From contig NZ_AGAV01000014.1 of assembly GCF_000224785.1 (NCBI RefSeq), positions 62,001 through 126,000 of the forward strand: a stretch of DNA of 64,000 nucleotides, given 5' to 3'. A model generated the notes under the pieces. It saw only the letters and a program-made list of their open reading frames with translations, was not told the origin of the DNA and made no database searches. The translations under genes were made by a program, and so were the position numbers. Source of the DNA: Lentibacillus jeotgali. Lineage in GTDB: Bacteria; Bacillota; Bacilli; Bacillales; Amphibacillaceae. Within the stretch, counting starts at the first letter, position 1. Each line of letters starts with the position of its first letter. Shown here piece after piece: positions 11,203 to 33,063 of this stretch.

Positions 11203-11285
11203 TTATGCTCCAGCCGCAGACGGTCAGCGACCATGGCGATGAATTCAGAATTGGTCGGCTTAGCTTTTGAAATATTAACTGTATA
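11203..11285 (-). repeat. att repeat: original 3' end of spo0A (83-bp direct repeat, distal copy)
   Basis: These 83 bp are identical to 32291-32373 inside spo0A. Read on the minus strand they encode the C-terminal segment of Spo0A, ending RLRLEHKAS with codons AAG GCG AGT TGA that continue outside the repeat to about 11194. Left of it lies the chromosomal terminator at 11087, so this copy is the displaced native gene end. It has no spo0A promoter or N-terminal part and is a gene fragment. Confidence 0.95.
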
Positions 11286-11337
11286 ACCGTTGATATATCA
11301 AGGTTTTAAAAATTTTGTTTGTTAAACAATATCAATT

Positions 11338-11415
11338 ATTTATTGGTTTGTAATTATGGATTTATTGGTTATCTATCATTAACTATTTTCAGTATAATAA
11401 TACCAGTAAAGGAAG
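11338..11415. repeat. Inverted arm-type repeats, distal end of the element
   Basis: Contains ATTTATTGGTT at 11338 and again at 11360 (as ATTTATTGGTTAT), and TACCAGTAAAGGAAG at 11401-11415. The 13-mer and the 15-mer recur in inverted orientation at 32162-32174 and 32141-32155 near the other end. Such inverted sites 50-150 bp inside the crossover sites are the expected layout of integrase arm-binding sites. Confidence 0.65.
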
Positions 11416-11463
11416 TCAATTACTTTTTTTAAAAACTGTGTCTTTACTGAAACAAACTACTAT

Positions 11464-11706
11464 TTAATAACATGCTTTTTCTTTCCAACCTTCAAAATTG
11501 AAATTACAGATATTAATATACTGGTTATCTATAATCCAATTTAAAATGGTTTCTGTCTGTTTATCGGTTAAACTTGTAACATTACCTTTTCCATCCACTG
11601 CAACAAAATAAACATTACCAGTAATGATTATATAGTTACCCTTTTCATCCAGTAGAATCCTGTTAGGTTTTAAAGATGTACAAAAGGATTTAAAGAGTCT
11701 ATATAT
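11464..11706 (-). pseudogene. Frameshifted remnant of an unknown element gene
   Basis: On the minus strand one frame reads RNELEDNQEYIDSLNPFVHL and stops. The next frame continues with KPNRILLDEKGNYIIITGN and runs to GWKEKACY and a TAA at 11464. The two pieces abut at an A/T-rich CTTTAAAAC, suggesting a single-base frameshift in a once continuous gene. No start codon or family can be assigned. It lies between the distal end of the element and the IS66 copy, which may have removed its 5' part. Confidence 0.35.
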
Positions 11707-11812
11707 TCTTGGTTATCTTCCAGTTCATTTCTTCATGCTTATAACTTCCATTGTTATAAAGTAAGCGTCAAATAATCCCCACCTGTATTCAGATGGGGAT
11801 TTCGTGTATGCT

Positions 11813-13393
11813 TTATTTAGATTTATTAGGAACGTGACATTCTTGAGGGAGTGTTGCTGACCATGGTAGGAACTGAGCCAATTGCTCCTTATCTGTCGTA
11901 TCCATATTGGGAAGTTCTTCAAATAAATAGTTGAGATAATTGAATGGATTTAACCCATTTTCTTTGGCTGTCTCAACGAGACTGTAGATAATCGCACTGG
12001 ATTTAGCTCCCTTTGCGGTATTGCTGAACAGCCAATTTTTCCTTCCCAGCACAAAAGGCTTGATGGATCGTTCTGCACGGTTATTATCAATTTCCAGACG
12101 GCCGTCCTCTAAAAATGCTTCTAACTGTTCCCATTGTTTACGACAATATTTAATCGCCTGCCCAAGGGCACTTTTTGGCAGCACGCGAGGTGTCTGTTCT
12201 TGAAGCCATGCCAAAAAAGCCTCCAACACTGGCTGGCTGCGCTCTAAACGCTTTTCATAGCGTTCTTGGGGACTTGCGTCCTTTAATTCACGTTCAATGT
12301 CGAACACCTTATTACAGAAGGCCAACCCTTCTTTTGTCTTCGCACCTGTAGTGGATGATGCGGAGTCAGGCAACGCCTGCAGTGCTTCTGTAAATTTGCG
12401 GCGTGCATGCGCCCAGCAGCCCACCAGGGCTACATCAGGCAGTCCGTTATAGGCGGGATAGCCGTCTACATGCAAGTATCCCTGAAAGCCTTCCAGGAAT
12501 CGGCGGGGGTGTTTACCGGCCCGGGTTTGCTGATAATCGTACAGAACAATTGGTACATCAGCCTGTCCGGAGCGATACAGCCACATGTAGGATTTTGACG
12601 TTGCGGACCGTTCCGGTTCGGATAAAACTTGTAATGTTGTCTCATCCGCGTGTGCGATGTCCAGCTCCAATAATTGGGCATGCATTTCGTTGTAAATCAG
12701 CTCAAGCCAGGTATTGGCACCGTACATCATCCAATTGGCCAGTGTCTGGCGTGGGATGAATACACCAAAACGCTCCAAATGCTTCTCTTGCCGATACAGT
12801 GGCATGCCTTCGACATATTTTTGAGTCATGGTGTAGGCCATTGCGGATGGAGAGGCCAGGCTACCCGGAAAGACAGGTTCTGGCATCTTCGCTGTCACAA
12901 TTGGTGTTTCGAGCTCATGGCGTTCACAATGGCGACAGCTATATACATGGCGTACATGCTCCACCACTTTCACTTGTGCAGGAATGACCTTTAACTCTTT
13001 ACGCACTTCCGTGCTCATGTCATGTAGTTCTTCACCGCAACACGAACAGACCTGTTCCTCATCAGTCAGACGATATTCCATCGTTTCTGTAGGCAGGTTT
13101 TCAAGCTTTTGTTCGCGCTGGCCACACTGTTTCTTGCGTTGATATGTAATCGTCTCGACAGTTGGTTCTTGGGTAGTCGGATCAGCTGTTTCTTCGGCTT
13201 CATTGAAAAGGGAGAGCTGGTTTGAGTCGGTCTTCTCACTGGAAGAACCAAATCTGCGTTGTTGGCTTAGACGAAATTGTTCTTCGTACCATTTTAGCTT
13301 GGCCTCCAACGCCTCGTTTTCCATCTCAAGCTTTTCATTTTGCGCTTTAAAATATTCAATTGATTCGTTTGATGTATGCGCTGTTTTTTCCAT
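11813..13393 (-). CDS. tnpC: IS66 family transposase TnpC
   Basis: 526 residues, full length. A leucine-zipper-like N-terminal coiled coil (about 8-50) precedes a zinc-finger region with CSCCGEEL and the CRHCERHE pair. The DDE catalytic domain follows with HADETTLQV, YLHVDGYPAYNGL and the DNNRAERSIKPFVLGRKNWLF block typical of IS66 transposases, and there is an IS66 C-terminal extension. It is the catalytic protein of this IS. The frame is intact, so the copy may be active. Confidence 0.95.
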   Translation of the reverse strand: MEKTAHTSNESIEYFKAQNEKLEMENEALEAKLKWYEEQFRLSQQRRFGSSSEKTDSNQLSLFNEAEETADPTTQEPTVETITYQRKKQCGQREQKLENLPTETMEYRLTDEEQVCSCCGEELHDMSTEVRKELKVIPAQVKVVEHVRHVYSCRHCERHELETPIVTAKMPEPVFPGSLASPSAMAYTMTQKYVEGMPLYRQEKHLERFGVFIPRQTLANWMMYGANTWLELIYNEMHAQLLELDIAHADETTLQVLSEPERSATSKSYMWLYRSGQADVPIVLYDYQQTRAGKHPRRFLEGFQGYLHVDGYPAYNGLPDVALVGCWAHARRKFTEALQALPDSASSTTGAKTKEGLAFCNKVFDIERELKDASPQERYEKRLERSQPVLEAFLAWLQEQTPRVLPKSALGQAIKYCRKQWEQLEAFLEDGRLEIDNNRAERSIKPFVLGRKNWLFSNTAKGAKSSAIIYSLVETAKENGLNPFNYLNYLFEELPNMDTTDKEQLAQFLPWSATLPQECHVPNKSK

Positions 13394-13468
13394 AAGATAA
13401 GTATACGAAAAAGAACCCGACTTGCCTAGTCGAATTCCTGTATTTTCATATTTCAGTTTCTTATAGTC

Positions 13469-13825
13469 TTATAGAATAGTGCGCGCTTTCACCTCACGGT
13501 GTGCCTGTTTCTGTTCGATTGGCAAACCATCCAGCAGCCAACGAAGTTGGCGCGGGCTGATATTCATGGGTGCCGAATCATTTTCAGTTGGCCAATGGAA
13601 GGTCCCTCTTTCCAGCCTGCGGTAATGCAACCAAAATCCGTTGTGTTCCCACTGAAGGATCTTCAGCTTGTCACGTTTCCGATTACAGAAAACAAACAAG
13701 CAGGGGGAAAAGGGATCGAGGTCAAAACATTCTTGTACAATAATCGCCAGACCGTCAATGGATTTGCGAAGATCCGTGCTGCCGCGAGCCAGGTACACAC
13801 GATCGAATGTTACATTTGTCAGCAT
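13469..13825 (-). CDS. tnpB: IS66 family accessory protein TnpB (Orf2-like)
   Basis: 118 residues with the conserved IS66 Orf2 pattern: VYLARGSTDLRKSIDGLA at the N-terminus, CLFVFCNRKRDKLKILQWE in the middle and GFWLHYRRLERGTF. It is required with TnpA for transposition in characterised IS66 elements; its biochemical role is unknown. Its start overlaps the end of tnpA, so the two are translationally coupled. Confidence 0.93.
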   Translation of the reverse strand: MLTNVTFDRVYLARGSTDLRKSIDGLAIIVQECFDLDPFSPCLFVFCNRKRDKLKILQWEHNGFWLHYRRLERGTFHWPTENDSAPMNISPRQLRWLLDGLPIEQKQAHREVKARTIL

Positions 13826-14166
13826 TAGCTTCGCAGGACATGAATGATATCGGATAGTAAGCCAACATTGGCTCCCGGCCGGACTTCGACTGAAATAGCA
13901 CCAAAGTGAATGAAGATCGGGTCCTGTCCTTCGGACGATAACATGTCATCCTCCACTTGGGCGGCCAGCCATTGAGTTTCTGAGGTCTTCGGTTCTGGTG
14001 AAATCATATCTCTCTCGAAACGTCGAACCCAATAATACATTTGGTGAACCTTGATATCTTGGTCACGACACCATTCAGCTATACTTTGGCCACTGGCTTT
14101 CCAAGAGTCATATCGCGTCTTCCATTCTATTCGTTTGTCTTTCAGGGTCATCACATAACCTCCCAA
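13825..14166 (-). CDS. tnpA: IS66 family accessory protein TnpA
   Basis: 113 residues. The helix-turn-helix part reads RYDSWKASGQSIAEWCRDQD followed by VHQMYYWVRRFE, the signature of the IS66 TnpA subunit (transposase_8-like). It is the first gene of the IS, with its stop overlapping the tnpB start. Intact. Confidence 0.88.
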   Translation of the reverse strand: MGGYVMTLKDKRIEWKTRYDSWKASGQSIAEWCRDQDIKVHQMYYWVRRFERDMISPEPKTSETQWLAAQVEDDMLSSEGQDPIFIHFGAISVEVRPGANVGLLSDIIHVLRS

Positions 14167-14229
14167 ATAAATTCTAAGAAGATTATCGCATCGATGACCT
14201 GAGATTAATACGTGTATTTTATTTGACGC

Positions 14230-14619
14230 TTACTCCTGTGATTTAACTTTAGATTTACCCTTATTACGTTCTGTAAAACGTGATATTAGCTTTACTTTAA
14301 ACATTTCTGTGTCAAAACCACTTGGATTTTTTAAATAATCCATTGCATAAAGATATTGAAAAAAACTTTTTTTATATCTTTGTTGTGTGTCCAATTCGAC
14401 CTTCGGGATAATTTTTTTATAATCATTAAAAGTTAGCTTTGTTACATCTAAATCTTCTACATCATTAACTAGTAGATTATGTATACTACTTCTATATTGT
14501 GCTTTTGTAGTTTCATTAGTGTAAAGAGATAAAAATGAATTAATAGCCTTTAAACTTATTGGATATTCCATTAGTAAATTATCCATAACATCTTTAGGTA
14601 TTGAATCTTTTTTGACCAT
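14230..14619 (-). pseudogene. Truncated recombinase-like protein (core-binding domain only) cut by IS66
   Basis: 129 residues starting at ATG 14619. The all-helical N-terminal part, with YRSSIHNLLVNDVEDLD, LTFNDYKKII and a QRYKKSFFQYLYAMDYLKNP segment, resembles the SAM-like core-binding domain of tyrosine recombinases. The reading frame ends at a TAA formed by the IS66 terminal repeat (CAGGAG joined to TAAGCG), so the native C-terminal, presumably catalytic, domain is lost and is not found beyond the IS. Fold assignment is by pattern only. Confidence 0.5.
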
Positions 14620-14867: not shown

Positions 14868-15563
14868 TTATTTATACTGTTGTATGCCTTGCAGTGCCTG
14901 ATTTACTTCATTATCTGATATGGTAAGATGCTGTAATGATACTGGTGCTTTTTCCGTTTTAATTCCCAGCATTTCAGCCATTTTTGCATTATGGTTAAAG
15001 CCGAATTCCTTCAGGTGCCTTTCTATAACCTTATCTGTATCAATCGCATCCTGATATGCTTTACCCACCGAAACAACACCCTTTAAATATGCCTGTTTCT
15101 GATGCTGAAGCTTGTTTGCTGTTTGCTGTATTTCTTCAGCCAGTGCATTTGTGTAAGCATCCTGAAGTTCCTGAATTTGATTAATAATATTCAATGTATC
15201 TTCTTTCTTGAATCCCTGCACCTTGTCCAGTTCTTCAGATGCTTCCTGAAGCGATTCTTCATAAGGTTTCAATGCCTGTTCAGCATCTTTCACATCGTGT
15301 TCTGAAGCAAGCTTCTTTGTGTATTGCTTGAAAACATCCTTATACTGCTGATAATACCGTTCATATTCCGTCAACTTACTATTATAATCAGCTTTCAACC
15401 CTGCAAGGCTTTTATTATAGCCATATGTAAGGCTGGTAAGTTCTTGTTTTAGCTGGTTAATCCTTGTAACATGCTTATCTTGTTTAGGTGCTTCAGGTGC
15501 TTCAGATTCCCTTTTATTCCGTATAAATATCCCCTTGCAGTAGTCTAAGATACCTTTAAACAT
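14868..15563 (-). CDS. Coiled-coil protein of unknown function
   Basis: 231 residues from the ATG at 15563 (MFKGILDYCKGIFIRNK). The frame is open 9 codons further, but GGGGGAAC and AAAGG precede 15563, and its ATG overlaps the upstream stop in ATGTTTAA, indicating translational coupling. The body (about 40-170) is rich in Q, E, K and Y with heptad character (INQLKQELTSLTYGYNKSL, LQEASEELDKVQGFKKED), predicting a long coiled coil. No signal peptide or catalytic motif is seen. It is the last gene of a minus-strand cluster in the element, before a terminator. Function not recognised. Confidence 0.6.
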   Translation of the reverse strand: MFKGILDYCKGIFIRNKRESEAPEAPKQDKHVTRINQLKQELTSLTYGYNKSLAGLKADYNSKLTEYERYYQQYKDVFKQYTKKLASEHDVKDAEQALKPYEESLQEASEELDKVQGFKKEDTLNIINQIQELQDAYTNALAEEIQQTANKLQHQKQAYLKGVVSVGKAYQDAIDTDKVIERHLKEFGFNHNAKMAEMLGIKTEKAPVSLQHLTISDNEVNQALQGIQQYK

Positions 15564-15798
15564 CCTTTGTTCCCCCTTCCCTTGCTTCAAAGTTAAAAAC
15601 TAGGTTATTCAGTTCTGATATAAAAGCTTCTTTATCCGATGCATTTCTGAAATACCTTGTATGGTTCACCGATTCACCAGCATCAGTCAGCATTATACTT
15701 AATTTATGGTGTTCTGATTCAGATTTTTCAGCCAGTGCCTTTTTACTTTGCATGTTTGCCCTTCTATTTTCTTTTGTCCAACTTGGTTTATCTGCCAT
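15556..15798 (-). CDS. Small hypothetical protein of the element
   Basis: 80 residues, hydrophilic and basic at the start (MADKPSWTKENRRANMQSKK), with no membrane segment or recognisable motif. Its last 8 bases overlap the start of the coiled-coil gene downstream. It lies between the terminator at 15820 and that gene and probably belongs to the same transcript. Confidence 0.55.
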   Translation of the reverse strand: MADKPSWTKENRRANMQSKKALAEKSESEHHKLSIMLTDAGESVNHTRYFRNASDKEAFISELNNLVFNFEAREGGTKDV

Positions 15799-15819
15799 AA
15801 TTCCACCCCTTCATATATA

Positions 15820-15852
15820 AAAAAACACTGAAGTTAATCAGTGTTTTTTTTA
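15820..15852. terminator. Bidirectional hairpin at the end of the 94-residue gene
   Basis: AAAAAAACACTGA and TCAGTGTTTTTTTT form a strong stem with A- and T-tracts on both sides. The stop codon of the 94-residue gene lies inside the hairpin loop. Confidence 0.8.
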
Positions 15853-16118
15853 TCGTCATCAACTGTATATAAAATGTCATCTTCGTGTATTTCTGTAACA
15901 TCATCATTCTCAAATAAAAGATTAAATCTGCTAACATCTATTACAAGATTTGTAATGATTCCTTTGTCATCAGTTTCAGCAATTACTGGATAAAAACCAT
16001 CTGCACGTGTGTTATAATATACGCCTTCATCGGTTCCAGCATCTGATAATTTAATATTTGCAGTATCTACTGGAATATAGTTATAAATAAAAGCACCGTT
16101 CTTTACATTTGTTTTCAT
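15834..16118 (-). CDS. Small acidic hypothetical protein
   Basis: 94 residues starting MKTNVKNGAFIYNYIPVDTA and ending in an acidic tail (TVDDDKKNTD). Beta-rich looking middle with YYNTRADGFYPVIAETDD. Flanked by terminators on both sides (15820 and 16204), so it is probably transcribed on its own. No family recognised. A complete ORF with good composition, so likely real. Confidence 0.55.
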   Translation of the reverse strand: MKTNVKNGAFIYNYIPVDTANIKLSDAGTDEGVYYNTRADGFYPVIAETDDKGIITNLVIDVSRFNLLFENDDVTEIHEDDILYTVDDDKKNTD

Positions 16119-16203
16119 CTGTAATCCATCCTTTTTTATTGTAGTTTTATTTTCCTTTACACGCCTACAACAAGATTGAATTGAGATTCAGACACATATT
16201 TAT

Positions 16204-16230
16204 AAAAAAAAGGCTGGTAAATAACCAGCC
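16204..16230 (-). terminator. Terminator after the 209-residue coiled-coil gene
   Basis: GGCTGGTTATTTACCAGCC on the minus strand followed by eight T residues. It lies directly downstream of the stop at 16238 and closes the XRE-to-coiled-coil operon. Confidence 0.85.
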
Positions 16231-16237
16231 CTAGCCG

Positions 16238-16867
16238 TTAAATCTTAGGATTAAGTTTTCTTTGTCGGTACACCGTGCTTAACTCACGGTTACCGATGTT
16301 TAAGTAATCTTTACCTGTACCAAATTCATGCCCGAATCCGTCAACATATGGGGAAGGATAATCTATATAATTACGTGTTTTCAACCCCCCATCTACTGCA
16401 ACATCAGCCATTTTACTTTTCAGTAGATATGTTTTGAACTGTTCATTCGATATATCAATAATTTGTTTAAGGTACTGCTGTTTAGCTTCTTTCAGCTTGT
16501 CCAGTGTTTCAGCGTATTGCTTTCTTTCTTCTTTTTGCAACTCTTTTTCGATTTCTTGGTATTCAGCATATACCTTTGATAATTCATATTGTTCAAGTCC
16601 ATCAATATCGTTTACCTTTTGCTGGAGTGTAGCCAGTTCCTGCCGTTTTGCATCAGTTTGCTGTTTGATTTCATGATAAGCAGAAACATCTATATCATTC
16701 ATGATGTATAGTGAATACGTTTCTTTTTCTTGCTTTTCCAGTTCCTGAATGGATTCTTCCAACTTTTCAGCATCTTCTTTTGCTTTCTGTTTCGAAGCTT
16801 CAAACTTTTGCCGTACCTGTTCAGCCTTATCTATTAGTTTTTGTGTTTCTGTAAATACATTTGCCAT
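16238..16867 (-). CDS. Coiled-coil phage-type protein of unknown function
   Basis: 209 residues. Residues about 5-150 are an almost uninterrupted charged coiled coil (KAKEDAEKLEESIQELEKQE, YAEYQEIEKELQKEERKQYA). A compact C-terminal part follows with YIDYPSPYVDGFGHEFGTGK and GNRELSTVYRQRKLNPKI. Its ATG overlaps the stop of the helix-turn-helix gene upstream in TAATG, so the two are coupled. The pairing with a phBC6A51-type DNA-binding protein suggests a phage-derived module, but no function can be assigned. Confidence 0.62.
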   Translation of the reverse strand: MANVFTETQKLIDKAEQVRQKFEASKQKAKEDAEKLEESIQELEKQEKETYSLYIMNDIDVSAYHEIKQQTDAKRQELATLQQKVNDIDGLEQYELSKVYAEYQEIEKELQKEERKQYAETLDKLKEAKQQYLKQIIDISNEQFKTYLLKSKMADVAVDGGLKTRNYIDYPSPYVDGFGHEFGTGKDYLNIGNRELSTVYRQRKLNPKI

Positions 16868-17328
16868 TATTCTATACCCCTTTCGCTTTTCAACCGTGTT
16901 AATAAAGAAGCCTTCTTATCTTCTACTGTTCTATCATCTGACGGCTTGCCTTTTTCAGTGATTCCCATCCGTTGCATTGCCTTTTGCTTCTCGTACTGAA
17001 CAACATAATCAAAATGTTCAAGATACATATTGATTTCTTTTTCTGTTGGATTATCACTATTAACCCTTGCCAGTATGTGCTTTTTCACCACATCGTAAGC
17101 ACGTAACTCATCACTGCTTATCAATTCGCCTTTAAGTTCCTGCACATAAGCGGAAAAGTCAGGATTTTTCAGCCATTTGCTTAGTGTTGCAGTAGACATG
17201 TTAAACTTCTTTACAAATTCGCCTTGTGGAAGCCGGTTATTCAATCCGTTCTGCACCCATGCTTTTGCAATCTTCACCTGTCTTTCTGTAAGCTTTTCAG
17301 GTGGTTCAATGTTCATCATTCCACCCAT
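16867..17328 (-). CDS. phBC6A51-type helix-turn-helix protein (terminase-small-subunit-like)
   Basis: 153 residues from the ATG at 17328, preceded by AAGGGGTG at 6-bp spacing; two upstream in-frame codons lack an RBS. The N-terminal 60 residues (LTERQVKIAKAWVQNGL, then GEFVKKFNMSTATLSKWL) form the homeodomain-like helix-turn-helix described for phage phBC6A51. That fold is shared with small terminase subunits. The C-terminal half is basic and helical. No large terminase subunit is present in the element, so a DNA-binding or packaging-recognition role remains a guess. Coupled to the downstream coiled-coil gene by TAATG. Confidence 0.65.
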   Translation of the reverse strand: MGGMMNIEPPEKLTERQVKIAKAWVQNGLNNRLPQGEFVKKFNMSTATLSKWLKNPDFSAYVQELKGELISSDELRAYDVVKKHILARVNSDNPTEKEINMYLEHFDYVVQYEKQKAMQRMGITEKGKPSDDRTVEDKKASLLTRLKSERGIE

Positions 17329-17342
17329 AAATAACACCCCTT

Positions 17343-17744
17343 CTAAACTGTGAAATATTTTCTAATAAAGTCTTTTGGTTGCAGTGAACGCCAGCCTGAA
17401 AGCTTCCTTTCAGTTTGCTTCGTGTAAAATTCGCTGGATATTAATGCATCCAGCAATACATTACAGCGTTTAATGTTCACACGCTTCTGCATCAGTTCAT
17501 CAATTAAATCCTGAAGTGATGCCAGTGCTTTATTCTTATTACGTCTTGCAATATTTTGGTATCTTTCAATGTGTTCCATATAATTCGTATTGGTATATAC
17601 TGCAAAAAACCGCAGTTCATTATGCTTTAGTTCTTCTAATACTTCAGCCACCAGTACAGCCAATTTCTGTACTTGATGCAGATGCCTTTCATCATTCAAT
17701 GCTTTTTTAATAGCTTTGAGTTTCTTCAATTCCTGCTGTAACAA
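17343..17744 (-). CDS. Hypothetical helical protein
   Basis: 133 residues, predicted mostly helical and basic (MLQQELKKLKAIKKALNDER, then LAVLVAEVLEELKHNELRFF), ending WRSLQPKDFIRKYFTV. It lies 14 bp after the XRE repressor gene and 14 bp before the phBC6A51-type gene, so it is in the same operon. No known domain recognised. Confidence 0.55.
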   Translation of the reverse strand: MLQQELKKLKAIKKALNDERHLHQVQKLAVLVAEVLEELKHNELRFFAVYTNTNYMEHIERYQNIARRNKNKALASLQDLIDELMQKRVNIKRCNVLLDALISSEFYTKQTERKLSGWRSLQPKDFIRKYFTV

Positions 17745-17759
17745 CCCCCTACACCCCTT

Positions 17760-17987
17760 TTATTGTTGGTTTGATTTCTTCAGCCCTGAAAGTAAGTACA
17801 CCTCATCTTGCGACAAGCCTTTTTCTTCAAGTGCCTTAATAACTTTTCTTTTGGTGGTTTCTGAAATGTTCAGCAATCCATTCTCGTAATGTGATAATGT
17901 ACTTTGGTTTTTTCCAATCGCTGAAGCCAATTCACTTTGTGTGAAGCCAGCAACCGCCCTGCATGTTCTTAGTAAATGCTTATCCAA
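17760..17987 (-). CDS. XRE-family transcriptional regulator
   Basis: 75 residues, essentially one Cro/C1-type helix-turn-helix: LRTCRAVAGFTQSELASAIG, KNQSTLSHYENGLLNISETT. It is the first gene of the minus-strand operon and is divergent from the small plus-strand gene at 18346. The gap between them contains a 26-bp imperfect palindrome. It probably represses its own operon and perhaps the divergent gene, in the manner of phage control switches. That role is an inference from position. Confidence 0.82.
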   Translation of the reverse strand: MDKHLLRTCRAVAGFTQSELASAIGKNQSTLSHYENGLLNISETTKRKVIKALEEKGLSQDEVYLLSGLKKSNQQ

Positions 17988-19678: not shown

Positions 19679-19707
19679 GTGCCGAAATATGTACCGCAAA
19701 TTTTGAC

Positions 19708-21288
19708 AGCCGAATCAATTTCATAATTGCTCTTTTTAAAAACACAAAGACCTGCAGAATTTTTAAAATGGATTTTTTAAAATTCCTTTAAACAGCTTGC
19801 TAGGCAGCCTGTTGTTGGTTTAGCTTCGCATTAATACGATCTGCAGCTAGTTTTGAAGCATTATACATCAAAGTAACGATGTCAAAATGGACTTTAGCAC
19901 GTTCACCTGTGCGATTACGAACATTGTTGAGCTGGAAGAACTCCTTTAAATACGCATTAACACGTTCCACTGCTGAACGACGGTTGTAAATAGCTTTCCA
20001 GGCTTTGGAGCCACGAGCCGGCGCTGTGTATCGTCTGAGGTCTTTGGTAATTTTCATCTTGAACACTTTTTGGCAAATACCTTCATTGGCTAATGGGCAA
20101 TCTTTGCATTCCTTCGGGCTCGTGTACTTCAGTGTTTCATATTTGGCATCGTAACTATCATAACGATACGAATGCTCACGGAAACAAGTCGGGGCAAAAT
20201 ACTTATCAAACCCAATTGGTTCCGATTCATTCCGTTTATTATAGGCAATAATGGATTGCTGCCCCATTTGGTACACTTGCTGGTAAATCGGTTCAAAATC
20301 ATAACCGGCATCCATCGTTTGATAACACAAGTTTGGAAGTGGCAAGCGTTCATCAATCCCTTTCAATAACGGAATGGCGCCTTTTCCGTCGTTCATTTTT
20401 CCTGACGAGAAAAGGGACTGTAAAATATATTGACTCGATGTACCAACCGCCAGATGGCCTTTATAGCCAAACCAGAATTCGTTTTTGCCTTCACTATTCT
20501 TCTTGACTCCCCATTGGGGATCCCGAGGAACTTCATCACGAAGTTCGGTTAAGGAAGCGTCTAATTGGGCTTCAATTTTTTTGTCATAAAGAGGCATATT
20601 AGCTTCTTTTTCAGCTTTTTCCTTTAACCATTGTTCACGCTCTTCTTTGGATTTACTGCCGCGCTTTTTAGGCTCCGGCTTTGGCTTTTCTTCTTTAAGT
20701 GGTGCCTGATCGCGTGCTTCGAAGTGAGTAGCATCGATTGCGACTGTATCATCAATGATAAAGCCTTCCGCAATGGCTTGGAGGACAACCTTTTCCTGCG
20801 CTTTTTCCAAAGCGTTTGTTTCTTTCAACTTCGCAAAAAGCCGGGAATAAGAAGCTTCAGATGGGATTGGATCAGAAACAAGAAATCCGCAATTCAGTTT
20901 AAAGGCAATATCGTCATTTAGACGTTTGACCAGGTCTTTTATCGTTGGGATGCGCTCGATGTATCGAATGAAAATGGAAATAATCATCGCTGCATAATTC
21001 AGCTCTTCCGGCGCACCAAGTCGCGATTTTTTGGTCACTTCATGGTAAATCGAATCCAAATCAATCGCGGAAATGATTGCCTCATATTTTTGGGTAGGTT
21101 CCATTTCATATAATTCTTGGATGCCAAATAGGCTCGTTTGCCGTATAATGGTCATAGGAAGTACTCCTCCAGTCTTTTTGGGATGTTTAGTCAACGACCA
21201 TTATACAAGATTTGGGGAGGTACTTCCTTTTTTATGTCTGCGAGCCCTTGCGAGATAAGGGCTGGGAATTATGAAATTCACTCAGCCG
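19708..21288 (-). mobile_element. IS1182-family insertion sequence
   Basis: One transposase gene is flanked by imperfect inverted repeats sharing AATTTCATAATT: CAGCCGAATC before it at about 19708, and CGGCTGAGTG (read from the other strand) ending near 21288. Exact ends and target duplication could not be fixed by eye. Confidence 0.75.
19800..21155 (-). CDS. IS1182 family transposase
   Basis: 451 residues from ATG 21155 (RBS GAGGAG); the frame is open 13 codons further. Typical IS1182 layout: N-terminal IS5-like domain with LNYAAMIISIFIRYIERIPT, then DDE residues in DDTVAIDATHFEARDQ and QTMDAGYDFEPIYQQV. A cysteine cluster (KECKDCPLANEGICQKVF) follows, then the C-terminal NRRSAVERVNAYLKEFFQL with the catalytic E. 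Full length and intact. Confidence 0.93.
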   Translation of the reverse strand: MTIIRQTSLFGIQELYEMEPTQKYEAIISAIDLDSIYHEVTKKSRLGAPEELNYAAMIISIFIRYIERIPTIKDLVKRLNDDIAFKLNCGFLVSDPIPSEASYSRLFAKLKETNALEKAQEKVVLQAIAEGFIIDDTVAIDATHFEARDQAPLKEEKPKPEPKKRGSKSKEEREQWLKEKAEKEANMPLYDKKIEAQLDASLTELRDEVPRDPQWGVKKNSEGKNEFWFGYKGHLAVGTSSQYILQSLFSSGKMNDGKGAIPLLKGIDERLPLPNLCYQTMDAGYDFEPIYQQVYQMGQQSIIAYNKRNESEPIGFDKYFAPTCFREHSYRYDSYDAKYETLKYTSPKECKDCPLANEGICQKVFKMKITKDLRRYTAPARGSKAWKAIYNRRSAVERVNAYLKEFFQLNNVRNRTGERAKVHFDIVTLMYNASKLAADRINAKLNQQQAA

Positions 21289-21290
21289 AT

Positions 21291-22049: not shown

Positions 22050-22604
22050 ATGCCTAAACAGATAAAAGATGTTCAGCCAATAAGAAGCCAGCAACAAATA
22101 ACTGATATGAAGTGGTCACTTAAAAAATGGTGTTCTGAACGTGATTATATACTGTTCTTAATCGGTATTAATTCAGGTTTACGTGTTGGGGATATGCTGA
22201 AACTAAAAGTTAAGGATGTTAAAAACAAGAAAAGGGTTGTTATTCAGGAAGGCAAAACCAAGAAGAAAAGGATAATAAACCTTACTAACATTTATCAGGA
22301 AGTTCAGGATTACGTTAAAACAGTACAATCAGAATGGCTGTTCCCTAGTCGTAAGGGCGATAAAGCCATTACAACTACACAAGCATACAGACAACTTAAT
22401 AAGGCTGGTGAAATGGTTGATATACCTGAAGGAATAGGAACACATACCATGCGAAAAACATTTGGTTACTGGTATTATAAACAATCTAAAGATATTGAAT
22501 CACTTCAGCAAATACTCAACCATTCAGACGTTAAAGCTACCAAAAGATACATCGGAATCACTGAAGATGAAATTAATAATACACTTGAAAATTTTGTACT
22601 ATAA
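22050..22604 (+). CDS. Short tyrosine recombinase (catalytic domain only)
   Basis: 184 residues, lacking the usual N-terminal core-binding domain but with the complete catalytic set: Arg in GINSGLRVGDML, Lys in the QEGKTKKKR hairpin, the H-x-x-R box in IGTHTMRKTFGYWYY, a His in ILNHSDVKATKRYIG, and the Tyr of KRYIGI. Such small recombinases occur in Bacillus phages and plasmids, where they often resolve multimers. It lies mid-element, far from the ends, so it is less likely than the 31150 gene to be the integrase. Confidence 0.82.
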   Translation: MPKQIKDVQPIRSQQQITDMKWSLKKWCSERDYILFLIGINSGLRVGDMLKLKVKDVKNKKRVVIQEGKTKKKRIINLTNIYQEVQDYVKTVQSEWLFPSRKGDKAITTTQAYRQLNKAGEMVDIPEGIGTHTMRKTFGYWYYKQSKDIESLQQILNHSDVKATKRYIGITEDEINNTLENFVL

Positions 22605-24109: not shown

Positions 24110-24922
24110 CTACCCGAAATAAATAGATGCCGGTGTTTGATAATCTAATGATTGATGAGGCCGTTCATGATTATAAAGGTTCATATAATCCCTTATATTG
24201 CTTCTTGCCGCTCTTGGTGACCCATAGTCCTTTAAATAGACTTCTTCGTACTTAAGGCTTCTCCAAAAGCGTTCAATCATGATATTATCCAATGCCCGCC
24301 CCCTTGAGTCCATACTAATTTGTACGGATGGATGCTCTTTTAAAAGATTAATGTATTTTGGGCTGGTAAAATGACTGCCTTGATCACTGTTAAATATTTC
24401 AGGTGTACCGTGCGTGAATGCGTGTTGTACGGCATCCAGGACAAAGTCAATTGCCAACGTCTGATCCAGTTCCCAACTGATAATGTAACGGGAATACCAG
24501 TCGATAATGGCCGTTAGATACATCCAGCTATTATGCAAGCGAATGTATGTAATATCAATGCTCCAAACCTGGTTGGGCCGAGTAATATTCACTCCTTTCA
24601 GCAGATATGGATAAATACGGTGCTGTAGATTGCGTTTACTCAAATTAGGACCCGGATAAATGGCTTGTATACCCATTTCACGCATGTGACGCCGCACTCT
24701 TTTACGGTTGATATTCACTCCTTTTTTCTTTAGTATTTCAGCAATCCTGCGTGAACCAAAATACGGATATTTGGTATAAATCTCATCAATCCAATGTTTC
24801 ATGGCAACCTCTTCCGGTGACGGTTGAACAGGCTTATAGTAAAGGCTTGAACGATTGATTCCGAGTAGTTTAGCCTGCTGGGAGATAGGCAGTTCCGGAT
24901 CTACCCAGTCCACCATCTCCAT
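24110..24922 (-). CDS. IS3 family transposase OrfB (catalytic part)
   Basis: 270 residues. An HTH_21-type segment (LPISQQAKLLGINRSSLYYK) is followed by the rve integrase core with NQVWSIDITYIRLHNSWMYL, NSDQGSHFTSPKYINLLKE and the terminal E in GRALDNIMIERFWRSLKYEE. It ends with YNHERPHQSLDYQTPASIYFG. Normally made as an OrfAB fusion by frameshifting. Here OrfB is in the +1 register relative to OrfA, see orfA. Confidence 0.93.
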   Translation of the reverse strand: MEMVDWVDPELPISQQAKLLGINRSSLYYKPVQPSPEEVAMKHWIDEIYTKYPYFGSRRIAEILKKKGVNINRKRVRRHMREMGIQAIYPGPNLSKRNLQHRIYPYLLKGVNITRPNQVWSIDITYIRLHNSWMYLTAIIDWYSRYIISWELDQTLAIDFVLDAVQHAFTHGTPEIFNSDQGSHFTSPKYINLLKEHPSVQISMDSRGRALDNIMIERFWRSLKYEEVYLKDYGSPRAARSNIRDYMNLYNHERPHQSLDYQTPASIYFG

Positions 24923-24932
24923 CCGTTCCCGT

Positions 24933-25229
24933 CTAGTCGTGGTATATGCCAGATTTTTTTTTGATCCACGACAATTGCGTGGTTAACTTTCCGACTTCTG
25001 CATAGAGATTTTCAAGCTTTTCTTCATAGTCGGCTTTCATTTTTTCCTGGTCCTCATTCTGCTTGTTAAAGAGCTTCGGCATTTCTTGCAGGAATTGTGT
25101 TTTCCACTTATGAAGTTGGTTCACATGGATTCCGTTTTCCGAAGCAATTTGGCTCATTGGTTTTTCTTCCTTCAAGATTTCCAACACGATTTGTGATTTG
25201 AATTCTGGTGTATATCTTTTGCGTTTCAT
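24933..25229 (-). CDS. IS3 family transposase OrfA
   Basis: 98 residues with the transposase_8 helix-turn-helix (RYTPEFKSQIVLEILKEEKP, ASENGIHVNQLHKWKTQF) and a leucine-zipper coil. It ends in SWIKKKSGIYHD. A run of nine A residues lies at the KKK codons (24954-24962), the expected frameshift region. The orfB frame is +1 (equivalently -2) from orfA, not the -1 of standard IS3 elements. Loss of one A from the run would fuse the two directly, so either transcript slippage or a fixed indel is possible. Confidence 0.88.
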   Translation of the reverse strand: MKRKRYTPEFKSQIVLEILKEEKPMSQIASENGIHVNQLHKWKTQFLQEMPKLFNKQNEDQEKMKADYEEKLENLYAEVGKLTTQLSWIKKKSGIYHD

Positions 25230-28611: not shown

Positions 28612-30360
28612 CCTGGATTCCCGCCATCACATAACGATAAATTGGGTGAAAATCCGATAATGTTGGGCTTCATGCCCATTTTTTATTGTTTTATACTCGT
28701 TATGTGTTACAATATACATAACGAGGAGGCAAAAAATGGCTATCGTCTATCAGACAGATAAGCGATCAGGGATCACCTATGCGTATGAGTCCATTTCATA
28801 TTGGGATAAGGACAAGCGGCAATCCCGATCCAAGAGGACCTTAATCGGACGGGTGGACCATAATACTGGTGAAATTGTCTCGACAGACGGAAGAGGACGG
28901 AAAAGTCATGAGGAGCATACCGTGACAAAAAGGGGGCCTGTTCCATCTGTGCAAACGTCACGTTATTTTTACGGCGCGACTTATCTTCTTGACGAAATCG
29001 GAGCCAATACCGGGATTACAGAAGATCTGAAAGCGTGTTTTCCCGACAAGTACCACCAGATTCTATCCATCGCATACTATCTGGTCTTGGAGGACAACGC
29101 TCCGCTCTACCGTTTTGAAAAATGGAGTCATCTACATAAACATCCTTACGGTCAAAACATCACGTCTCAGCGAAGCAGCGACCTGTTCGCGTCCATCACT
29201 GAAGACGCAAAATATAAGTTCTTCCAGCTGCAGGGGAAACGGCGGACGGAAAAGGAATTTTGGGCCTATGATATCACCACCATATCCAGCCAGTCTGAAC
29301 TTTTGAGACAGGTGCAATACGGCTGGAATAAAGAAAGCGACCCACTGCCTCAGCTAAACCTGGCGTTGGTGTTCGGCGAAACGTCCAACCTGCCATTTTA
29401 TTACCGCAAACTAGCTGGTAATATCCCGGATTCCAAGACCGTCAGAAAACTGCTTGCCGATTTGGATGTGCTTGGTTTCTCCAAAGTGAAGTTGGTCATG
29501 GACAGGGGCTTCTACAGCCAGGAAAATATCAACGCATTATTGAAAAACCATCTGAAGTTCCTGGTCTCCGTCAAAATGTCTCTTACGTTCGTCCGGAAAG
29601 AACTGGATGCCATCTATGACGGCTTTCGATCGTTTGAACACTACAGTGAGAAATACCAGCTATATGGCCGCACGGTCCGGACAACGTGGCATTATACGCA
29701 GCATCGTCCCTATAAAGGGGATACCCTGACACAGTCCAGGCGTATATATATTCACTTTTATTACAATATTGACCGAGCTGCGGAGGACGAAAAAGCATTC
29801 GATCGCAAGTTAATCAATCTGCGTCGTGAATTGGAATCAGGGAAAAGGCTGCCAGAACATGAAAAGCAGTATCAAACGTATTTTGAAACAAAAACCACAC
29901 CGAAGCGCGGGACAAAAGTCACCGTCAAAGAAGAGGCTGTCAACAAGGCCAAGCGATATTTTGGATTTTTTGCTCTGATGACCAATGAAACGATGGACGC
30001 CATCGCTGCGTTGGAGCTTTACCGCAATAAGGACGTTGTTGAAAAGGCGTTCGGAAATTTGAAGGAACGGCTGAACCTGCGCCGCACACTGGTATCATCC
30101 GAACAGAGTCTTGATGGGAAGCTTTTTGTGGAATTTGTGGCACTCGTCTATCTTTCGTATATCAAAAAGCAAATGCAGGATACCGATTTATCCAAAAAAT
30201 ATACGCTACAGGGCGTGTTGGATCAACTGGATGTTATAGAATGCTTTGAAGCGCCCGGGAAAGAACCGCGTATTGGCGAACTTCTCAACAAGCAAAAAGA
30301 GATTTATGAAAAATTAGGTGTTACCCCGCCTGCCTCGTTATGAGTAGGCGGGAATCCAGG
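28612..30360 (+). mobile_element. IS1634-family insertion sequence
   Basis: 1749 bp with perfect terminal inverted repeats CCTGGATTCCCGCC, flanked by the 6-bp target duplication ATGTAT (28606-28611 and 30361-30366). One transposase gene on the plus strand, opposite to the interrupted gene. The intact duplication indicates a fairly recent insertion. Confidence 0.93.
28736..30343 (+). CDS. IS1634 family (IS4-group DDE) transposase
   Basis: 535 residues starting at ATG 28736 behind GAGGAGG. Catalytic features: FWAYDITTISSQSELLRQVQ, the VKLVMDRGFYSQENINALLK block, and NKDVVEKAFGNLKERLNLRR with the Y-(2)-R/K-type C-terminal signature. Codon use is more GC-rich than the element genes around it, fitting independent origin. 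Intact. Confidence 0.93.
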   Translation: MAIVYQTDKRSGITYAYESISYWDKDKRQSRSKRTLIGRVDHNTGEIVSTDGRGRKSHEEHTVTKRGPVPSVQTSRYFYGATYLLDEIGANTGITEDLKACFPDKYHQILSIAYYLVLEDNAPLYRFEKWSHLHKHPYGQNITSQRSSDLFASITEDAKYKFFQLQGKRRTEKEFWAYDITTISSQSELLRQVQYGWNKESDPLPQLNLALVFGETSNLPFYYRKLAGNIPDSKTVRKLLADLDVLGFSKVKLVMDRGFYSQENINALLKNHLKFLVSVKMSLTFVRKELDAIYDGFRSFEHYSEKYQLYGRTVRTTWHYTQHRPYKGDTLTQSRRIYIHFYYNIDRAAEDEKAFDRKLINLRRELESGKRLPEHEKQYQTYFETKTTPKRGTKVTVKEEAVNKAKRYFGFFALMTNETMDAIAALELYRNKDVVEKAFGNLKERLNLRRTLVSSEQSLDGKLFVEFVALVYLSYIKKQMQDTDLSKKYTLQGVLDQLDVIECFEAPGKEPRIGELLNKQKEIYEKLGVTPPASL

Positions 30361-30849
30361 ATGTATTGTGCGGTATCCAAGAAAAAAACGTTTGTTATAA
30401 TCTCTTTAAAGTCAGCATGATTTTTGTACAGGAATACATACTTGTTTTTGCCATCAGCTAAACCACCAACAATAAAACACCTTAATTGCTTAATTCCCTT
30501 TACTGCATCTTTAACAGTTCTAACAGATGAATCTGTATTCTTTGCCAATGTTTCAGATGCAATTTTACAGATTCCACCAACTGACAGCATGTACACAATT
30601 TCATCCAGTATTTTATATCTCTTTGAACCTGAAGGAAACAACCGGTTAAAATTGATGCCATTTGTTAAAGCTTCTTCCTTCACTTCCTGAATGATTTCCC
30701 TTTTTGCTTCAGCGTTTCCCTTTTCTATGTACTTTTGTATATCCTGATTATATGCAGTTAGTTTTGTTTTTGTTTCCATATCTAGTTTTCCCCTTATCGT
30801 TCGGAAAAAACCATACTCCACCCCTTAAAAAGGCATTACTTAATAAGCC

Positions 30850-30878
30850 TTGCATTATCGAAATTTTTTCGATAAAAT
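30850..30878 (+). promoter_or_regulatory. Promoter with embedded palindromic operator
   Basis: TTGCAT and TAAAAT lie 17 bp apart. The spacer is filled by TATCGAAA-TTT-TTTCGATA (30856-30874), a perfect 8-bp dyad that overlaps the -10 box. It is placed to drive a short plus-strand transcript, divergent from the winged-helix gene whose start is at 30779. A repressor bound here would block it. Confidence 0.6.
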
Positions 30879-30884
30879 GAAGGT

Positions 30885-30962
30885 ACAATTTGATGTGAAT
30901 GTACGGCTTTTTCCGTATATTTTGTTTGAAATTCACCTACTACCCAATAGGTGGATTTTTCT
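30885..30962 (+). ncRNA. Candidate small RNA or micro-ORF transcript
   Basis: A promoter at 30850-30878 and an intrinsic terminator (CACCTA at 30934, TAGGTG at 30948, then TTTTTCTTTT) define a transcript of about 75-80 nt in the gap between the winged-helix gene and the 55-residue gene. An ATG at 30877 begins a 33-codon frame (MKVQFDVNVRLFPYILFEIH...) that overlaps the terminator but has no RBS. RNA function is therefore more likely than translation. The ends are inferred from sequence only. Confidence 0.45.
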
Positions 30963-30970
30963 TTTGCTTA

Positions 30971-31138
30971 TTATTTAATCACAGCCACTTTAGGATTGTG
31001 TAATTCATAAGCTAACTGCCTTAAAGCTTCATCATCATTTAAAATCCAAACCTTATCTAATGCTGTAACAATTTTTGATATTTCATCATAGCTGGCTTGA
31101 ATATTGATTGTGTTATTGCCTAAATTTTCAACCTTCAT
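30971..31138 (-). CDS. 55-residue hypothetical protein preceding the terminator region
   Basis: Starts at ATG 31138 with AGGGGTG 7 bp upstream. The protein MKVENLGNNTINIQASYDEI has an acidic middle (ALDKVWILNDDEALRQLAYE) and ends in NPKVAVIK. It begins 11 bp after the integrase stop on the same strand, so it is probably co-transcribed with int, the position where phage-type excisionases or small regulators often lie. It has no helix-turn-helix, so an excisionase role is doubtful. Confidence 0.55.
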   Translation of the reverse strand: MKVENLGNNTINIQASYDEISKIVTALDKVWILNDDEALRQLAYELHNPKVAVIK

Positions 31139-31149
31139 TTTTTTCACCC

Positions 31150-32130
31150 CTATAATTTTAAGTTGTTTAATGGCGAATGTTTTTGATACTTCGCCCCTAT
31201 TTCTTTATCTGTAAAATCTAAATACGCCTTTTGCGTTACTTCTACACTGGAATGCCCTAATATCCTTGATAATGAAAACCAATCCCCACCGTTCAGCAAA
31301 TAATACTTTGCAAAATTGTTTCTTAACTGATGTGGGTGGATGTTAACCCCTACATTCTTGCCAGCATCCCTTAATGACTTTTCAAAATTCCGTATTTGTA
31401 ATTGTGTGCCCCGAATGGTTGGAAATATAAAATCACTACTGGAAAAGCGGTCATGATACTGTAACCAACGTTTTAAATCACTGGACATTTTAAAGGAAAA
31501 ATACACATATCTTTGTTGATTGTTTTTAGGATTCTCAATTAAAATCGCTTTGTTTTTAAAATCAATTACTTTGGGTATTAATGCCAAACATTCTGAAATA
31601 CGAATACCTGTATCCAGTAACAAACGTGTGACAATCCAGTTACGATAACCGTGAAAGGTAGTAATATCAAATTGCCTTAATACCTTTACAATTTCATCAC
31701 TCGTTAGAAGTGCCTTTTGTTTTCTTTTGGGCTTAATAGGTGCTATGGATTCAACTGGATTTGTTTTTATTTCACGTTCTACATCGTATAAATAATTAAA
31801 AAATACTTTTATGTTCCGTAAATAATTAGCAATTGTCGTATCACCAATATCCTTTTTATAATCTTTTCTTTGGTCAGGGTGGTTCACTAATAAAGAAGCT
31901 TGATTTCCAGTGACTGAATACTTCCCACGTTCACGTAAATATTTAATGTAATGCCGAATGTGTGCAGACTTCACTTTACTGACTTCATTAATTTGAAACT
32001 GTTCTTCCATGTACATGGCAAATAACCTTAGTGTTTGTTCATAACTTTTTAATGTTTTTTCAGATAAATGTTTGCTGGTGCAATACAACATGAAATTATC
32101 CATTTGCAGTTCCATATCTGATAACAACAA
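31150..32130 (-). CDS. int: Tyrosine integrase of the spo0A-inserted element
   Basis: 326 residues. N-terminal core-binding domain (about 8-120, SEKTLKSYEQTLRLFAMYME). Catalytic domain with Arg in LLLDTGIRISECLALI, Lys near IENPKNNQQRYVYF, HPHQLRNNFAKYYL (H-x-x-R), ILGHSSVEVTQKAYLDF with His and the nucleophilic Tyr. The start is taken as TTG 32130, 9 bp after GGAAGG; ATG 32115 is possible but lacks an RBS. It lies 150 bp downstream of spo0A and in the same orientation. Being next to the crossover repeat it is the obvious integrase. Confidence 0.92.
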   Translation of the reverse strand: MLLSDMELQMDNFMLYCTSKHLSEKTLKSYEQTLRLFAMYMEEQFQINEVSKVKSAHIRHYIKYLRERGKYSVTGNQASLLVNHPDQRKDYKKDIGDTTIANYLRNIKVFFNYLYDVEREIKTNPVESIAPIKPKRKQKALLTSDEIVKVLRQFDITTFHGYRNWIVTRLLLDTGIRISECLALIPKVIDFKNKAILIENPKNNQQRYVYFSFKMSSDLKRWLQYHDRFSSSDFIFPTIRGTQLQIRNFEKSLRDAGKNVGVNIHPHQLRNNFAKYYLLNGGDWFSLSRILGHSSVEVTQKAYLDFTDKEIGAKYQKHSPLNNLKL

Positions 32131-32190
32131 AAAAAGACACCTTCCTTTACTGGTAATTTACATAACCAATAAATAAAGATGTCTTTTGGT
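32129..32190 (-). terminator. Hairpin between spo0A and int that overlaps the int RBS
   Basis: On the minus strand AAAAGACA and TGTCTTTT enclose a second stem (CTTTA...TAAAG, TTGGT...ACCA) and are followed by seven T residues. It can terminate spo0A read-through before int. The int Shine-Dalgarno GGAAGG lies inside the structure and the T-run touches the TTG start. The inverted arm repeats are part of this hairpin. Confidence 0.6.
32141..32174. repeat. Inverted arm-type repeats, integrase-proximal end
   Basis: CTTCCTTTACTGGTA (32141-32155) and ATAACCAATAAAT (32162-32174) are exact reverse complements of TACCAGTAAAGGAAG at 11401 and ATTTATTGGTTAT at 11360. They lie 117-150 bp inside the att repeat. 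Confidence 0.65.
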
Positions 32191-32280
32191 AAACAAACGG
32201 TTTATTTATAGCCCTAAAAAGAAGTTTGTTGGCTAATGTTCACTAACATAAAAACCTTAAAAATACTGTCATATCAACGT

Positions 32281-33063
32281 TTATGAAGCTTTATGCTCCA
32301 GCCGCAGACGGTCAGCGACCATGGCGATGAATTCAGAATTGGTCGGCTTAGCTTTTGAAATATTAACTGTATAGCCAAACAGTGCTGAAATTGATTCAAC
32401 ATTCCCACGGCTCCACGCGACTTCAATGGCATGCCGTATCGCCCGCTCTACTCGTGATGCTGTTGTGTTATACTTCTTGGCAATATCAGGATACAAGACT
32501 TTGGTAATCGATCCTAAAAGCTCAATATCATTGTAAACCATTGTAATCGCTTCTCTTAAATACATGTAACCCTTGATGTGTGCGGGAACGCCAATTTCAT
32601 GTATGATATTCGTAATATTGGCTTCCAAATCCTTTTTCTTGCGTTCCTTGCCGCCGGATTTTTTAGGTGGCGCCTGTTTTATAGTATCTGTACCCTGCAC
32701 TTGACGGATCTGTTCAGCCAAATTGTCCAATTCGAAAGGTTTCAAAATGAAATATGATGCCCCTAAGTCCACAGCCTTTTTCATAACCTCTTCTTGACCG
32801 AAAGCTGTCAGCATAATAACGTTTGGAGCATTATCTCGTGCTTCTCCGCGTATCGTATTCAGTACTCCAAGTCCATCAATATGCGGCATAATAATATCCA
32901 AAACGAGTACGTCCGGCTCCAGTTCATCCAGCATATCCAGACATTCCCGTCCATTGTAAGCTGCCCCGATAACCTCAATATCTTCCTGTTCTTCAAAATA
33001 CTCCTCCATTAATTGGACGAGTTCCCTGTTATCATCTACTAAACAAACCTGAATTTTTCCCAC
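32281..33063 (-). CDS. spo0A: Spo0A, sporulation master response regulator
   Basis: 260 residues from GTG 33063 (RBS AAAGGAGGAAC). The receiver domain (1-125) has VDDN, the phosphorylated Asp in [14 protein letters not shown], and Lys in FILKPFE. The C-terminal DNA-binding domain (from about 150) includes [20 protein letters not shown] and ends LRLEHKAS, so the regulator appears fully functional. The gene end is a hybrid: bases 32291-32373 are the recombination repeat, and the last bases (AAA GCT TCA TAA) come from the element, encoding the same residues as the displaced native end. Promoter region has sigma-H and 0A-box sequences. Confidence 0.97.
32291..32373 (-). repeat. att repeat: integrase-proximal copy within spo0A
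   Basis: 83 bp identical to 11203-11285. It covers the codons for the Spo0A segment [20 protein letters not shown] to EH. The mismatch just outside on one side (G versus A after GTATA) and on the other (GCTTTA versus GCCTTA) fixes its limits. Crossover occurred somewhere inside it. Confidence 0.95.

Follow-up and report, generated by a model that had tools for sequence, protein, structure and literature searches.

Mobile elements that integrate at the 3' ends of protein-coding genes such as icd or guaA supply a substitute end for the gene. The closest precedent for an integrase family dedicated to one target is the group of dusA-associated integrases and islands, which the relevant sections of PMC4482086 tie to a single conserved protein gene. 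Here, we analyzed a stretch of 64,000 nucleotides of the Lentibacillus jeotgali genome (hereafter, the window), in which an insertion of about 21.1 kb with a tyrosine integrase gene (int) adjoins spo0A, the gene of the master regulator that starts sporulation. We consider it probable that this insertion is an element that targets spo0A, exchanges the end of the gene for a synonymous one and switches int through a promoter that is split from it upon integration. As for icd and guaA, the site is the 3' end of a protein gene, here a different one. Like the dusA group, the integrases concerned appear to serve highly diverse prophages and islands at one host gene, whereas the dusA elements, as those sections describe them, use the 5' end of dusA, belong to Proteobacteria and include some islands in other genes (PMC4482086).

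State-dependent switching of the integrase promoter is described for ICEKp1, ICEclc and ICEEc1, which sit at tRNA genes. In the parts of PMC13023037 devoted to these elements, int lies about 200 bp behind the host gene, the host terminator is displaced, stem-loops in the leader act as a terminator and a promoter at the other end drives int after excision. The spo0A elements resemble them in this layout, including, by prediction, an outward promoter at the end opposite int and a terminator-like stem-loop in the int leader. However, those elements are proteobacterial, use tRNA genes and were studied experimentally (PMC13023037), whereas the evidence at spo0A is sequence evidence. Here, in addition, the host gene is a sporulation regulator, and the hairpin abuts the start codon of int and holds its ribosome-binding site. 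In Tn916, a terminator close to one end is presented in the relevant part of PMC11658703 as an insulator that shields element genes from a host promoter, which is also the likeness with spo0A elements, but Tn916 has unspecific target sites and antitermination by canT (PMC11658703), and no such antiterminator was identified in the spo0A elements.

Mobile elements within genes of the sporulation programme are also known, namely skin, SP-beta, vfbin, gin and yin; in the passages that describe them (PMC10747680, PMC5595907, PMC4191935), the gene is interrupted and works only once the element has left, whereas spo0A stays whole. The passages of PMC10747680 that name such elements do not include one at spo0A. 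In agreement with the initial annotation of the window, which knew of no described element targeting spo0A, we found no description of this gene as an attachment site in the open-access literature, subscription papers being outside the search.

The insertion next to spo0A in Lentibacillus jeotgali

The window contains an 83-bp exact direct repeat at 11203-11285 and 32291-32373, which bounds an insertion of 21,088 bp from repeat to repeat. No second exact direct repeat of at least 25 bp was found in the window, and a search of the host genome, assembled in 31 contigs, recovered only these two copies. The proximal copy, on the minus strand, lies inside an intact spo0A (32281-33063, minus strand; Response_reg and Spo0A_C matches), the last codons and stop of which are, as judged from the pair of copies and from congeners, probably supplied by the element. 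The distal copy, on the minus strand as well, belongs to a stand-alone spo0A 3' fragment of 31 codons that is open through to the native stop at about 11193; past it lie a bidirectional terminator-like inverted repeat and a convergent aspartokinase gene (9726-11087). The homology of the ends exceeds 83 bp and reaches the stop codon at the protein level, the last codons being AAG GCG AGT TGA in the fragment and AAA GCT TCA TAA in the gene, with different DNA and the same protein. The integrase gene (31150-32130, minus strand; TTG start at 32130 or 32127, or ATG at 32115) shares the direction of spo0A and starts some 150 bp past its stop. The repeat, the placement of its copies and the position of the integrase are therefore as the initial annotation had them. 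A tRNA gene as target was rejected, since a tRNA gene search of the window found none. The contrast that the annotation had drawn with skin-type disruption also stands: spo0A is whole while the element is integrated, and there is no interrupted gene to be rebuilt by excision.

Empty sites were found in relatives. Eleven Lentibacillus congeners were looked at, one of which was uninformative as its contig ends inside spo0A. In all ten others, spo0A is followed, at an apparently uninterrupted junction, by the convergent aspartokinase gene, the near end of which lies 86 to 886 nt from the start of a ten-residue protein motif. A close relative of the integrase was present in none of the 11. The congener with the most similar Spo0A (93%) ends in AAG GCG AGT TAA, like the distal fragment, and the GCT TCA codons of the working spo0A of the window occur in none of the ten informative congeners. 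An assembly error or a chance partial duplication of spo0A could be imagined in an assembly of 31 contigs, but it is extremely improbable: the copies agree over 83 exact bases, relatives are empty, and the layout recurs in tens of species including complete chromosomes, which already contradicts it.

An integrase clade found at spo0A

The integrase of the window matches Phage_integrase (2.6e-31). Residues R172, K197, H262, R265, H288 and Y298, which we take to be catalytic, are invariant in eight aligned integrases. With the window integrase as query, 9 of 159 family genomes (8 of 46 genera), the window's own among them, gave a match at E 1e-40 or better, and all nine matches lie directly downstream of spo0A. 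An alignment of eight of these nine integrases was then used to scan about 85,000 species genomes. This returned 63 clade loci, 62 of them with a co-directional Spo0A coding sequence immediately upstream, although at one of the 62 (L072) the Spo0A match is only 26% identical; the sole exception (L069), a match of 68 residues, lies close to the end of a contig. The hosts comprise many Bacillaceae genera, Paenibacillaceae, B. spizizenii, Lysinibacillus, Desulforamulus, Vallitalea and gut Clostridia/Oscillospiraceae.

Two further samples separated the clade from other integrases. In an even sample of the order, at least 13 of 397 genomes carry it, at 416-584 bits, the next best match scoring 147 bits; in a sample of the phylum (398 genomes), at least the window, one genome at 410 bits and a broken copy at 187 bits were found, followed by a match at 140 bits. 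All 15 clade loci of the two samples, the window included and with several species recurring from the larger scan, are at spo0A, whereas Spo0A occurs within about 1.5 kb at none of 44 outgroup integrase loci. Other occupied spo0A loci thus exist, and the split arrangement comes, elsewhere as in the window, with an integrase of this one clade (62 of the 63 scanned loci). Together with the empty sites, this bears out the integrative element with the spo0A 3' end as its attachment site and the gene left intact. Beyond what the initial annotation had envisaged, the spo0A elements appear to form a family across much of the phylum, with an integrase clade that seems dedicated to one host gene while its cargo varies. 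The synonymous spo0A end supplied by the element, the hairpin and the split promoter, described below, likewise go beyond that annotation.

In a comparison of 24 named loci, the similarity of two integrases sometimes exceeds that of the Spo0A proteins of their hosts (window and Fictibacillus, 84% against 71%; window and Rossellomorea, 83% against 72%), which suggests transfer between genera; the reverse holds in other pairs, such as window and Terribacillus (integrase 47%, Spo0A 76%). In phage and plasmid records, the best place for the integrase was below 60% identity in every record, and the matches listed reached 30% at most.

Stacked and interrupted loci were also observed. In Paenibacillus macquariensis (L115, L116, L243), an intact spo0A and three spo0A 3' fragments form an array of about 55 kb, in which every fragment adjoins a clade integrase, as expected of elements stacked at one site. 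A second case of stacking is a Clostridia metagenome-assembled genome (L041, 2220-9929), with spo0A, an integrase, a spo0A fragment and the start of a second clade integrase. At another locus (L241, genome G543), the clade integrase directly behind spo0A is split by an insertion of about 1.9 kb.

Crossover and the end of spo0A

Of 50 carrier genomes searched for Spo0A tails, 36 have two of them on one contig, and 34 of these carriers plus the window gave 35 pairs of spo0A copies. Where the copies of a pair differ, empty relatives distinguish host from element sequence; negative positions are given in nucleotides relative to the spo0A stop. In P. timonensis, set against its two closest relatives, host-like bases occur in the gene copy at -91, -78, -73, -70, -64 and -46 and in the fragment at -43, -31, -19 and -7, while -82, -37 and -10 are split between the two relatives and -61 fits neither copy. 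In P. rhizophilus, the gene copy agrees with the host from -78 to -64 and at -52, and the fragment does so at -43 and -37, with -31 split. Of 14 other Fictibacillus congeners, nine agree with the gene copy at no fewer than three of positions -100, -58, -55 and -52, and two tie. In Terribacillus, position -45 agrees, and at -7 to -2 the fragment is matched by six of eight other congeners without a known integrase.

Strand exchange would most likely take place within the codons F-I-A/M-V-A-D-K, at about -52/-46 to -43. By analogy with these relatives, the presumed crossover stretch of the window would be 11221-11243 in the distal copy (codons F-I-A-M-V-A-D-R) and 32309-32331 in the proximal one, both on the minus strand. 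The stretch can be read as a rough inverted repeat, TTTATCGC-NATGGTN-GCNGATAA. A crossover at the 5' edge of the repeat (-93) was not borne out by the empty congeners, and one at -34 to -10, based on a single Terribacillus site, was dropped.

From the crossover to the stop, the two copies show 70 synonymous and 7 nonsynonymous codon differences in 34 pairs (one of the 35 was omitted as degenerate), the seven being confined to four pairs. The element thus appears to supply the last ~14 codons of Spo0A, nearly always synonymously.

To the left of the presumed crossover, the element-borne copy equals the host exactly over 48 nt in 16 of 30 pairs (5 of the 35, with a shorter or degenerate copy, were omitted). 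A mean of 1.6 of 16 third positions differ between element copy and host, against 9.8 between species, where one difference or none was seen in 0 of 595 species pairs. In many species, the synonymous codons of the element copy upstream of the presumed crossover are therefore those of the host, though the copy lies outside any gene; one idea is that occasional homologous excision elsewhere in the repeat brings host sequence into attP, the attachment site of the element. At the distal ends of a subgroup, in Thalassobacillus, Virgibacillus halotolerans, Lysinibacillus fusiformis and Rummeliibacillus (L101, L102, L121, L122), the spo0A copy is shorter and starts about 60 nt ahead of the stop, where the others start at about 93 nt. 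Two Terribacillus loci (L145, L139) have spo0A tails like the element version of an occupied relative, with no clade integrase reported, and are possibly remnants or scars.

Arm sites, promoters and the hairpin before int

Three of 64 loci were skipped in the measurement of the gap between the spo0A stop and int; in the 61 others, it spans 136-245 nt and int is always co-directional. The pattern CCNAYNAA, picked after reading the gaps, occurs 65 times forward and twice in reverse in 58 gaps (shuffled mean 2.4), with at least one site in 48 of them, and 47 times forward and once in reverse in 35 distal arms (shuffled mean 4.2). In the window, all on the minus strand, a motif search placed the arm site CCAACAAA at 32225-32232 in the gap, and the distal arm (11295-11346) holds TTGATAT twice (11295-11301, 11329-11335) and CCAATAAA (11339-11346), with a second CCAATAAA site at 11361-11368. 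By reading of the sequence, a further TTGATAT lies just past the spo0A stop (32271-32277, minus strand).

A sigma-A promoter was predicted above z 1.5 in only 2 of 58 gaps. In contrast, outward promoters in the distal arm have a mean z of 2.0, with 21 of 35 above 1.5 (20 of 35 with dinucleotide shuffles), against 1 of 35 inward. In 13 of 35 arms, against 2.2 expected, the distance between the best promoter site and position -95 of the spo0A copy is 100-110 nt. In the window, the predicted outward promoter (11391-11419, minus strand) consists of a -35 box TTGACT (11414-11419), a 17-nt spacer and a -10 box TATACT (11391-11396), and would face int only when the ends of the element are joined.

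Joined ends of this kind were found in a metagenomic phage contig (L078). Its order is tail and immunoglobulin (Ig)-domain structural genes, TTGACA-17-TACAAT, a 33-codon spo0A tail without the 5' part of the gene, a gap with an arm site, the hairpin, int, and then head and replication genes. This is the gene order predicted for the circular or virion form; since the record is classed as linear, a tandem array may explain the joined ends.

Directly before int, the window has a terminator-like RNA hairpin (32132-32187, minus strand) with the Shine-Dalgarno (SD)-like GGAAGG at 32140-32145 in its 3' arm. Across loci, the hairpin at this position has a mean z of -4.8 and lies below -2 in 59 of 61. 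An SD-like tetramer is present in the 3' arm in 54 of 58 loci, and at least four U within eleven bases past the stem in 44 of 58. In 30 aligned loci, hand-chosen from the 58, 92.2% of cells pair (81.7% in shuffles), while slid controls reach 40-54%; two-sided changes number 62 against 22.3 in shuffles, and none of 500 shuffles reached 62. The strongest hairpin window ends at the start codon (-10 or +5) in 28 of 31 clade loci, every second one being taken, against 6 of 44 outgroup loci. The case for the hairpin would thus be made by its position, ribosome-binding site content and covariation. A search of Rfam gave no family at the gathering score, with weak matches only to eukaryotic microRNA families (best E 0.15).

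The inner stem of the hairpin repeats the arm-site sequence in inverted orientation, which could point to a site that acts as DNA, bound for example by Int or a directionality factor, instead of RNA control. We hold this to be improbable, as the sequence of the outer stem varies while its pairing is kept, with many G-U pairs, and as the SD-like tetramer sits in the stem beside the start codon in nearly all loci.

It is also possible, if doubtful, that the elements couple their exit to sporulation: the integrated int would be read only through spo0A, the hairpin would set a threshold, and rising spo0A transcription would trigger excision. The constant co-directional placement of int shortly behind spo0A, the lack of a predicted sigma-A promoter between the two genes and the displacement of the native spo0A terminator all fit, and the passages of PMC13023037 on ICEKp1 give a precedent in which the integrated int is driven by a host tRNA promoter. 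However, the conserved hairpin suggests suppression of read-through and not its use, and neither sporulation sigma-factor motifs nor the 0A box were enriched in the gap, so any sporulation coupling would have to act through the spo0A promoter. This promoter is controlled by Spo0A~P and sigma-H. If this alternative were true, a module of phages and islands across Bacillota would eavesdrop on the sporulation decision with spo0A unharmed.

Size and content of the elements

The smallest element contained in a single contig measures 2.1 kb and the largest 40.2 kb. Scans of 23 long open reading frames (ORFs) of the 40-kb Halobacillus element and 22 of the 36-kb element in Litchfieldia gave matches to terminase, portal, head and tail families. 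In B. spizizenii, type I restriction genes R, S and M adjoin the integrase; in strain TU-B-10, the tail search did not find a distal spo0A fragment. The term integrative element used by the initial annotation is correct yet broad, as the relatives are prophages, restriction islands and small remnants.

Among 19 other ORFs of the window, the matches were to integrases and repressor-like proteins and, weakly (best E 1.8e-5), to a small terminase family; capsid, portal and tail families were not matched. Relaxase and conjugation genes were absent from the window ORFs scanned, other elements having been scanned in part. The element carries four transposase insertions: an IS66-type insertion sequence (11813-14166, minus strand), a DDE transposase (19800-21194, minus strand), an IS3-like insertion sequence with rve and HTH_Tnp_1 (24110-25229, minus strand) and a second DDE transposase (28736-30343, plus strand), all from domain matches. 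Element-specific ORFs lie at 14868-17987 (minus strand), including an HTH_Tnp_1_2 protein (16867-17337) and an HTH_3 repressor-like protein (17760-17987). A 129-amino-acid ORF (14230-14619, minus strand) resembles, by eye and without a Pfam match, the N-terminal part of a tyrosine recombinase, and a 184-amino-acid tyrosine recombinase catalytic domain (22050-22604, plus strand) falls outside the spo0A clade by length and position; these two incomplete ORFs are perhaps remains of other elements.

The four insertions, together with the several elements of only 2-5 kb or with broken integrases, would fit a view of most carriers as harmless immobile remnants, in which the regulation proposed here would be a relic. 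This seems unlikely to us: many integrases are intact, complete-looking prophages occur, integrases are more alike than the Spo0A proteins of their hosts across genera, and end copies are identical over long stretches.

Spo0A tails in phage (10) and plasmid (4) records were also considered as attachment sites. The four records opened were rejected, as they hold full-length spo0A: two plasmid records with annotated full spo0A genes and two faecal phage scaffolds with full-length Spo0A and no clade integrase. A 163-kb plasmid of Paenibacillus bovis (L298, NZ_CP021170.1) carries a full-length spo0A, and a 13.7-kb circular 'plasmid' of Sedimentibacter (L295, NZ_CP142397.1) carries recN, spoIVB, spo0A and nusB, a chromosome-like block that may be an assembly artefact.

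Discussion

We propose that the tyrosine integrase would recombine the element with a conserved coding stretch of spo0A, the codons F-I-A-M-V-A-D-K/R. As attP would bear a ~93-bp copy of the spo0A 3' end, integration would swap the last ~14 codons and the stop for the synonymous version of the element; the Spo0A protein would remain unchanged and the far side would keep a non-functional 3' fragment. In the integrated state, int would lie just inside the spo0A end without a recognizable promoter, its likely promoter being at the opposite end and pointing outward. Joining of the ends would give the order promoter, attP, arm sites, hairpin and int; the promoter would then meet int, the integrase would be made and the element would integrate. 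Integration would in turn part int from the far-end promoter and place it behind spo0A and the hairpin, with the native spo0A terminator displaced to the far side of the element, and the conserved terminator-like hairpin, holding the int ribosome-binding site, would limit read-through. This anatomy would fit a self-limiting switch, a single module apparently common to prophages, a restriction island and small islands. The comparison of genomes supports the link between clade and target, the empty and duplicated sites, the restored tail, the probable crossover interval, the covariation of the hairpin and the joined ends of L078, while promoter activity, hairpin action, the off state and excision are what we infer from them.

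Several observations weigh against this proposal. Excision, a circle and integration are predictions from sequence, and the far-end promoter is identified solely by its fit to the consensus. Strong hairpins also lie upstream of outgroup integrases (the median of the minimum z is -4.4 in 44 loci and -6.1 in the 31 clade loci), and hairpin strength alone was therefore rejected as a special feature. A different fold of the hairpin in the circle and in read-through RNA was considered as well, but no difference was predicted in any of the six elements tried; the same hairpin would form in both transcripts, which leaves int expression past it unexplained. The crossover interval is contradicted by positions -52 and -25 in P. 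timonensis, -25 and -13 in P. rhizophilus and -34 in Terribacillus, and 3 of 14 Fictibacillus congeners match the fragment instead of the gene copy. A second Spo0A tail was not found in 7 of the 50 carriers and was on another contig in 7 more. Finally, the intact spo0A of P. macquariensis has no adjoining clade integrase.

Fragments of this kind may also bear on earlier surveys. Spo0A_C (PF08769) is reported as enriched in mobile elements of gut Firmicutes and interpreted as sporulation genes in the relevant part of PMC6907783; some of these matches may be attachment-site fragments. More generally, phages and islands of endospore formers appear to dock at spo0A repeatedly, and in carriers the last ~14 residues of Spo0A would be written by mobile DNA, with evident selection to keep the protein. 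This raises a testable question, namely whether mobile elements use or shun the sporulation decision via read-through transcription. The integrase and its sites could, in addition, provide a means of site-specific integration for spore formers that have none.

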